Positions 5,986 through 7,620 of a DNA stretch of 45,653 nt are shown in pieces. The notes under the pieces are model-generated. The model searched no databases. It was not told the DNA's origin and saw only the letters and a program-made list of their open reading frames with translations. Origin of the DNA: Bacteroidota bacterium (GTDB taxonomy: Bacteria; Bacteroidota; Bacteroidia; 2-12-FULL-35-15); contig CANFLQ010000009.1 of assembly GCA_947447995.1 (NCBI GenBank), positions 1 through 45,653 of the forward strand, given 5' to 3'. A program made the position numbers and the translations under genes. Position 1 is the first letter of the stretch; each line of letters starts with the position of its first letter.

Positions 5986-6096
5986 CAGATTTTAAAAGAA
6001 AGGTGCTAACATGTTAAAAAAATAAAAAACATTTTAGGTTGCAACTAAATACTGCAACTTTACGTCTAAACTGCAAACAAATACGATATTTCACAA

Positions 6097-6624
6097 ATGA
6101 CCGATGAGCAAATTGTAGATGGTTGCATTAAAAAAAATGCCATTGCTCAAAAGTACTTATATGATAAATTTTCCAGAAAGATGATGGGAGTTTGTTTAAG
6201 GTATTGTGATAGTGAGGAAGAAGCAGAAGATGTTTTACAAAATGGTTTTATTACTGTTTTTGGCAATTTACATTCCTATAAAGGCTTAGGCTCTTTTGAA
6301 GGTTGGATACGAAAAATAATGGTAAATACAGCTCTTACAAATATAAGAAAAAATAAAAAATTCAGACAAAATATTGCTTTAGATAGTGTGGAATACATGA
6401 TACCCGAAACACAAAGTGTAGCCAATAGTTTTGAAGTTCAGGATTTATTAAAAGTAATACAACAATTGCCGCAGGGAAGCAGAACGATATTTAATTTATA
6501 TGCAATAGAAGGGTATTCTCATAACGAAATTGCCAAGATGTTAAATATTTCGGAAGGAACATCTAAATCACAATATTCACGAGCTAGAGCGTATTTACAA
6601 AAAGTAATTCCATTAGATAGATAA
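6097..6624 (+). CDS. ECF-type RNA polymerase sigma factor
   Basis: A 175-residue sigma-70 family factor with only regions 2 and 4. Region 2 (about 18-88) includes CLRYCDSEEEAEDVLQNGFI and the -10 binding helix GSFEGWIRKIMVNTAL. Region 4 (about 115-168) includes LPQGSRTIFNLYAIEGYSHNEIAKML and a helix-turn-helix ISEGTSKSQYSRAR. It directs core polymerase to a dedicated promoter set. The next gene starts 6 bases after its stop and encodes a one-TM protein whose cytoplasmic N-terminus is placed like an anti-sigma domain. This arrangement suggests control of the sigma factor by a membrane partner, but the regulon is unknown. Confidence 0.94.
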   Translation: MTDEQIVDGCIKKNAIAQKYLYDKFSRKMMGVCLRYCDSEEEAEDVLQNGFITVFGNLHSYKGLGSFEGWIRKIMVNTALTNIRKNKKFRQNIALDSVEYMIPETQSVANSFEVQDLLKVIQQLPQGSRTIFNLYAIEGYSHNEIAKMLNISEGTSKSQYSRARAYLQKVIPLDR

Positions 6625-6630
6625 AAGTAA

Positions 6631-7620
6631 ATGAAAGAAAACGACGTTGATGATTTATTTAAAAAATCGTTTGAAAACTTTGAAGCCAAAGTTAAACCAA
6701 GCGTATGGAAAAATATTAAAGTTGCTCTAAAATGGGGAGGCTTAGGTGTTGTGGTTAAATTTATATTAAACAAGGTAGGATCCAATACTGTTGTTGCTAT
6801 CCTTTCTTCCGCAGCCACAGTGGTTAGTACCATTATGGTAATGAATTGGAGCAGTAATAATTCCGATAAAAATAAATCAATTGAAAATCAAACAAAAACG
6901 ATAATCGCTTCAAAAACAGCATCAAATCCCGAAATAAATGCTACAACTGCAGCATCAAAAAATGTAAATAAAAACGCAGCAGTTGTTGAAGAAGTTAAAT
7001 CGGATATTATTTTAGAAAAAACAGATATAGACGCATCTGTAAAATTTGGTAAAGAAGACAAACAAAAAATAAAATCACTTATTCATTCTTTTTCTAGTCA
7101 ATCTATTGCATCTATTTCTGCTAGCCCAGTTGGAGGCTCGGTTCCATTAATTGTAAATTTGGAAAATATTGGAACAGGCAGTACTAATAAATGGACTTTT
7201 TCAGATGGAAAAAAAGAAAGTAATGGTTCTAATCCTGTTCATGTATTTGAAGCGCCAGGAGTTTATAGTGTAATTTTAACATCTACAAATGCAGAAGGTA
7301 AAATGGCAGTTGATAGTATAAAAATTGAAGTTACAGGCAACTCATCCATTTCATCTATTCCAACTTTATTTTCGCCTAATGGAGATGGAATAGCAGATGT
7401 ATTTACGTTTCAATCAAAAAACATGATCAATATGGAAGTAGAAATTTTTGATAAAAAAGGAACAATTTTTTATAAATGGTTAGGTAATGGTGGTAAATGG
7501 GATGGAAAAAATCTCAAAGGAGGTAAAGCAAAAGAAGGCACTTATTTTTATATCATCACAGCCGAAGGTGTAGATGGCAAAAAATACGAACAAAAAGGTG
7601 CAATTAATCTAGCCAGATAA
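6631..7620 (+). CDS. One-TM protein with PKD and gliding-motility C-terminal (CHU_C) domains; putative sigma partner
   Basis: A 329-residue protein in four parts. Residues 1-40 (VDDLFKKSFENFEAKVKPSVWKNI) resemble the cytoplasmic starts of Bacteroidota anti-sigma-like proteins. Residues about 52-72 (TVVAILSSAATVVSTIMVM) form one membrane helix without a signal-peptidase site. An Asn/Ala/Lys-rich linker (73-155) leads to a PKD domain (about 160-235, WTFSDGKKESNGSNPVHVFEAPGVY, interrupted here as one PKD strand-loop set). Residues 243-329 match the gliding motility-associated C-terminal domain (FSPNGDGIADVFTF, GKWDGKNLKGG, EGTYFYII), used elsewhere as a type B sorting signal of the type IX secretion system. 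It starts 6 bases after the sigma gene. That combination, a sorting-type domain on an uncleaved membrane protein beside an ECF factor, is unusual. The anti-sigma role is inference. Confidence 0.85.
   Translation: MKENDVDDLFKKSFENFEAKVKPSVWKNIKVALKWGGLGVVVKFILNKVGSNTVVAILSSAATVVSTIMVMNWSSNNSDKNKSIENQTKTIIASKTASNPEINATTAASKNVNKNAAVVEEVKSDIILEKTDIDASVKFGKEDKQKIKSLIHSFSSQSIASISASPVGGSVPLIVNLENIGTGSTNKWTFSDGKKESNGSNPVHVFEAPGVYSVILTSTNAEGKMAVDSIKIEVTGNSSISSIPTLFSPNGDGIADVFTFQSKNMINMEVEIFDKKGTIFYKWLGNGGKWDGKNLKGGKAKEGTYFYIITAEGVDGKKYEQKGAINLAR

Follow-up and report, generated by a model that had tools for sequence, protein, structure and literature searches.

How Bacteroidota keep the output of giant surface proteins in step with their type IX secretion system (T9SS) is, as far as we found, not known, and the circuits described so far regulate the secretion machine. 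The question is raised by a locus in a stretch of 45,653 nucleotides from a Bacteroidota bacterium (assembly GCA_947447995.1, contig CANFLQ010000009.1), hereafter the window, in which an ECF sigma factor gene is followed by a gene for a membrane protein that ends in a domain resembling a T9SS sorting signal. What does such a domain do on the presumed partner of a sigma factor? A first-pass annotation of the sequence had suggested that it might serve as bait in a sensor of T9SS activity.

Architecture of the sigma factor gene and its partner

The two genes and the parts of the partner protein are as follows.

6097-6624, + strand: ECF sigma factor gene (175 aa), with matches to Sigma70_r2, Sigma70_r4_2 and TIGR02937
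6631-7620, + strand: gene for a one-helix anti-sigma-like protein (329 aa), with a PKD domain and a type B sorting-like domain at its end
6631-6744, + strand: cytoplasmic segment, residues 1-38, with the motif DLFK.SF.N.EA.V.PSVWKNI; presumed sigma-binding domain
6781-6852, + strand: single membrane helix, residues 51-74, from hydropathy and helix prediction
6853-7113, + strand: variable periplasmic tether, residues 75-161 (mean conservation 0.31, with indels; pLDDT 21-38)
7114-7329, + strand: PKD domain, residues 162-233 (PF18911, PF00801)
7357-7617, + strand: type B (CHU_C/TIGR04131) sorting-like domain, residues 243-329 (PF13585, 63.6 bits; TIGR04131, 40 bits)

The first protein contains sigma regions 2 and 4 only (Sigma70_r2, E 2e-14; Sigma70_r4_2, E 8e-16, both over the cut-off), reaches 94.9 bits against the ECF superfamily model TIGR02937 and is thus classified as an ECF sigma factor. 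Its stop codon is separated by 6 bases from the start of the partner gene on the same strand, and the partner protein matches PKD_4 (E 2e-10) and CHU_C (E 2e-17) in Pfam as well as TIGR04131 above its cut-off of 35 bits. These results bear out the anatomy given in the first-pass annotation, namely an ECF sigma factor and, after this short gap, a protein in which a cytoplasmic segment, one helix, a PKD domain and CHU_C succeed one another.

The sole membrane-helix-like stretch of the partner sits behind about 50 lysine-rich residues of cytoplasmic type, and a Sec signal peptide is absent from its N-terminus, which these residues, many of them charged, make up. In some orthologues residues 150-170 resemble another membrane helix, but this stretch is the region of the first PKD strand, and the reading was rejected. 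Residues 1-38 are the best conserved part of the partner (mean 0.73, versus 0.31 in the linker); K11, F14, E18, V21 and W26 are invariant over the families, and two helices are predicted in this segment, at residues 6-15 and 23-35. Profile models of known anti-sigma families did not match the N-terminus. We also modelled the sigma factor fused to residues 1-52 of the partner, for which two in-frame TAA codons were read through solely to obtain one chain. In this model the helix containing W26 reached a pLDDT of about 84, compared with about 36 in the partner alone. Because the underlying alignment was trimmed and shallow (14 sequences) and most of sigma region 4 was modelled at low confidence, this is taken as a hint only that the N-terminus may bind the sigma factor.

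The two genes form a conserved pair

The first-pass annotation had made its proposal depend on the adjacency of the two genes in other Bacteroidota, and their orthologues are indeed not usually separate. Both genes stand side by side in 7 of 7 relatives taken from genome contigs, in which the sigma orthologues are 72-89% identical, and the sigma gene lies directly upstream in all full-length relatives of 34 genomes of the genus; at locus L055, the sigma reading frame and the promoter described below are present in the locus sequence. The genes are adjacent in every intact orthologous locus that we read (about 50 loci in nine families of the class), with an intergenic gap of -20 to +48 bases.

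For a class-wide search of 296 genomes, we then used the aligned first 78 residues of the partner as the query. It matched in 111 of them, which is an upper bound because weak matches may include Dma-like proteins (see below). Beyond the genus, the sigma gene adjoins at all of the 18 best loci (L168-L185, in families f5, f16, f20, f22, f33, f43 and f60) as well as in family f19. Wherever the partner gene is complete at the loci outside the genus, the order is the same and a CHU_C-like domain comes last, as confirmed by Pfam for f5, f16, f22 and f60. The partner gene stands next after the sigma gene in one operon, as expected of an anti-sigma factor gene, and we are highly confident that the two genes form a conserved pair of the sigma/anti-sigma type.

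In the window the pair is followed by a gene for PorG (NF052316; 7835-8677), then by uppS, bamA and two OmpH-like genes. The T9SS protein PorG was rejected as a functional neighbour, because this arrangement is shared with the nearest relative only; at the other loci the pair is followed by a large CHU_C cargo gene or by unrelated genes.

The promoter of the sigma operon

The sigma gene is preceded by a promoter that is kept across families, with the consensus TGCAAC-N17-CRTCTA.

6040-6068, + strand: ECF-type promoter of the sigma operon, TGCAAC (6040-6045), 17 bases, CGTCTA (6063-6068)

The promoter reads TGCAACCAAATAATGCAACTTTGCATCTA or a slight variant thereof in the genus, and its position is unchanged at every orthologous locus there. 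Other families have (T)GCAAC-N17-CATCT at the sigma gene, with a few looser versions, e.g., at L180 and L183. By chance, 0.3 matches to the pattern would be expected in the window at one mismatch. As this is the typical layout of an ECF promoter, its position before the sigma gene points to autoregulation, and the sigma factor presumably transcribes its own operon. The same promoter is absent upstream of the other ECF genes in the genome of the window, one of which shares the -35 part.

Within the genus, the 17-base spacer of the sigma factor's own promoter is conserved as well (a second TGCAAC and the inverted repeat TGCAACTTTGCA), whereas the spacers of the cargo promoters described below lack such conservation. 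Perhaps a second regulator binds in the spacer of the sigma factor's own promoter.

The promoter recurs upstream of T9SS cargo genes

A strict form of the motif yielded 122 sites in 24 genus genomes, versus 16 for the reversed pattern and 8 for a pattern with a spacer shorter by 2 bases. Complete genes located at most 250 bases from the fetched sites were taken as first genes (63 genes, 3 of which stem from the family f16 genome G050), and sorting domains were scored on their C-terminal 130 residues. As many as 35 of the 63 end in a sorting domain (CHU_C in 23, Por_Secre_tail in 12), compared with 11 of 150 random genes from the genus (2 and 9, respectively). Fisher's test gives p 4e-12 for type B alone and 8e-14 when both types are pooled; of 304 genes in a broader control, 2 had type B and 19 had type A domains. 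The targets prefer type B (23 B to 12 A, versus 2 to 9 in random genes). In family f16, a slightly relaxed pattern gave 55 sites in 6 genomes, versus 3 for the reversed pattern, and 19 of the 25 intergenic first genes encode cargo (12 type B and 7 type A), versus 3 type B and 14 type A among 171 other genes. Since orthologous genes are counted repeatedly in these raw totals, they were corrected by single-linkage collapse, after which cargo accounted for 11 of 29 clusters (p 1e-5) and for 8 of 11 clusters (p 3e-7).

The genome of the window (G000) has looser promoters, and with a relaxed pattern it yields large cargo genes at C7, C10 and C67; the gene at C7 lies 261 bases from the motif, and this gene and its type B-like ending were read by eye. 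A PorP/SprF shuttle gene stands behind five type B cargo genes with the motif. In 21 genomes of other families, the strict motif occurs mostly at the sigma gene only and rarely elsewhere. As membership of the regulon is assigned by likeness to the promoter of the sigma gene itself, some sites could be shared with ECF factors whose -35 element is similar (L022). Judged from these promoter comparisons, the regulatory link of the sigma factor to cargo is well supported, and the sigma factor very probably drives T9SS cargo in families f1 and f16.

Some recurrent sites precede other genes. The motif lies about 45-50 bases before topA, encoding DNA topoisomerase I, at L062 and L106 in the genus and at L210 and L214 in f16, which makes topA a conserved non-cargo target; it also precedes a gene for a YqeY-domain protein in three genus genomes (L063, L086, L107). 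Small secreted-looking, histidine-rich proteins of about 110-150 aa recur behind it as well (L059, L085, L118, L121 and L228; C81 in the genome of the window).

The recurrence of the sigma promoter upstream of T9SS cargo genes thus ties the pair to type IX secretion, as supposed in the first-pass annotation, although the inferred regulon consists of cargo and some shuttle genes and not of the machinery: none of the first genes behind the motif in the genus and f16 was recognised as encoding T9SS machinery, and no protease genes stand out. This bears on the direction of the signal. In one alternative, which takes up the first-pass annotation, the domain would sense cargo piling up; held by the T9SS it would keep the sigma factor off, and a block of export would release it. 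Such a circuit would have the same anatomy, and stress-type ECF systems usually turn on after damage, but extra cargo made during an export block would aggravate the jam, and the inferred regulon lacks standout protease or machinery genes. We therefore regard this sign as quite improbable.

The sorting domain of the partner lacks the RWG motif

To compare the domain with genuine cargo, we aligned 52 anti-sigma sorting domains and 79 domains of cargo encoded at the same loci. They differ at one short motif.

7450-7461, + strand: DKKG, residues 274-277, in place of the (D/N)RWG of type B domains in cargo

At position 276, none of the 52 anti-sigma domains has a W, in contrast to 71 of the 79 cargo domains, and [RK][WFY]G is contained in 73 of the 79 cargo domains but in just one anti-sigma domain (as RYG). 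Still kept in the anti-sigma domains are the P-N-D-G..D start, W290, G292, Y305, G323 and a basic last residue. In the sorting-domain tree, which is built on few columns and has long branches, the anti-sigma domains stand mostly apart from cargo.

The partner shares with T9SS type B cargo (PMC9143113, PMC12618676) the C-terminal TIGR04131/CHU_C domain, over the TIGR04131 cut-off, and differs from it in the cytoplasmic N-terminus and the lack of both signal peptide and RWG. The type B domain of SprB comprises five conserved motifs, each of which is required for secretion (PMC12618676); we take RWG to be one of them. As RWG is absent from the partner, its domain is probably a retained mimic that is not exported. 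This would make sense, because an exportable domain on a protein anchored in the inner membrane might block the translocon. Of the bait proposed in the first-pass annotation, the type B signature has thus stood, while the systematic loss of RWG makes a non-exported mimic the more fitting description.

This difference also matters for a second alternative. In flagella, the anti-sigma factor FlgM of sigma-28 is tied to the secretion machine and the regulon consists of late cargo; FlgM is soluble and exported. A comparable gate could be built from the same parts as found here: a working T9SS would pull on the tethered domain or try to export it, and the force would trigger proteolysis and release the sigma factor, so that cargo genes would be on only while the export machine works. 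A regulon of late cargo without machinery resembles the late flagellar genes. Unlike FlgM, however, the partner is a membrane protein and its export is unlikely; moreover, RWG is missing from its domain, and with each of the SprB motifs being needed (PMC12618676) engagement of the translocon is doubtful. We consider such a gate unlikely.

The loss of RWG might also mean that the domain is out of contact with the T9SS altogether. The PKD and CHU_C-like domains would then be a sensor of the surface or cell wall only (glycan, peptidoglycan or the state of the outer membrane), and T9SS cargo would be regulated because it is surface material. A search of PDB sequences with the C-terminal domain gave no T9SS structure. 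A fold search returned PorU first and mostly generic Ig-like folds at low TM-score, which would suit such a sensor, as would the outer-membrane beta-barrel at the end of further anti-sigma-like proteins with one helix in this genome. Against it stand the type B signature, which is kept over families down to the last residue, and the bias of the targets towards type B cargo; we consider this explanation unlikely.

Comparison with known systems

The closest relatives in layout are the dual membrane-spanning anti-sigma (Dma) proteins, which occur with ECF21 sigma factors in Bacteroides thetaiotaomicron (PMC13088901). Both have an adjoining sigma gene, an N-terminal anti-sigma segment (presumed in the partner), one helix and a long disordered tether. 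The Dma proteins end in an outer-membrane beta-barrel and control vesiculation and PULs (PMC13088901), whereas the partner ends in a PKD and a T9SS type B-like domain and the inferred regulon is T9SS cargo. The layout thus equals that of Dma with the barrel exchanged, and the partner may work like a Dma protein although it has no barrel. The genome of the window encodes four more pairs of an ECF factor and a one-helix anti-sigma-like protein (L018:4369-5736, L021:2917-4815, L022:5115-6485 and L024:3706-4605), two of which, at L018 and L022, end in a barrel (PF13568).

In Porphyromonas gingivalis, PorA-PorXY-SigP likewise uses a CTD protein to signal the surface or T9SS state to an ECF sigma factor (PMC7712824). 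There, PorA is a secreted CTD protein that acts via a histidine kinase and SigP controls T9SS machinery (PMC7712824); here, it is the membrane partner that carries the CTD-like domain, and cargo makes up the inferred targets, with no machinery genes recognised among the first genes. In Flavobacterium psychrophilum, the targets of SM6 ECF promoters include a sigma/anti-sigma operon and T9SS genes, the latter being, unlike those found here, machinery genes: GldN, PorU and a PG0189-like outer membrane protein (PMC9723704). These two systems show that ECF factors can control T9SS genes and that CTD proteins can act as signals (PMC7712824, PMC9723704); for neither is a sorting domain on an anti-sigma factor or a cargo regulon reported. 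In the literature searched, which comprised freely available papers, we found no published description of a sigma factor combined with a sorting-domain anti-sigma factor. The remark in the first-pass annotation that such a system is not described therefore holds there, with partial precedents (PMC7712824, PMC9723704, PMC13088901).

A putative meter of secretion load

The conserved pair, its promoter, the cargo regulon and the altered motif all emerge from the comparison of genomes. To account for them we lean, if only slightly, towards the view that the partner is a Dma-like one-helix anti-sigma factor that carries, in place of the beta-barrel, a T9SS cargo mimic incapable of export, and that cargo production is set by T9SS load.

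According to this model, the first 38 or so cytoplasmic residues of the anti-sigma factor would hold the sigma factor, which would transcribe its own operon and T9SS cargo genes, preferentially type B, in addition to type A and some PorP/SprF shuttle genes. The disordered tether would reach from the inner membrane and bring the PKD and pseudo-type B domains towards the outer-membrane T9SS. There, the cargo-like domain without RWG could dock on a T9SS component, either the translocon or a PorP/SprF-like shuttle, without being exported itself. The genome of the window encodes the T9SS translocon protein SprA at full length and has 15 matches to the PorP/SprF family. Since type B domains bind PorP/SprF-like barrels (PMC9143113, PMC12618676), these would be the first candidates for docking. 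As to the direction of the signal, we infer that docking would report free export capacity, upon which the sigma factor would be freed and cargo made; real cargo would then fill the sites and displace the mimic, and the sigma factor would be held again. Its release might proceed by regulated proteolysis. Taking all signs and mechanisms together, among which this likelihood is divided, some readout of the occupancy or activity of the T9SS by the domain is likely, whatever the route.

The RWG difference provides a simple rule to separate regulators from cargo in databases, where models at present label such regulators as T9SS type B sorting domain proteins. Whether a class-wide family of anti-sigma factors measures free T9SS capacity with a non-exportable copy of the signal, and adjusts the transcription of cargo and shuttle genes to it, is a tentative proposal to which we give slightly less than an even chance. 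With the promoter, the regulon and a sensor derived from an export signal at hand in many families, the question of load matching is now directly testable. If the proposal is true, these bacteria would possess a meter of secretion load built from a copied secretion signal, by which the output of cargo may be matched to export capacity.
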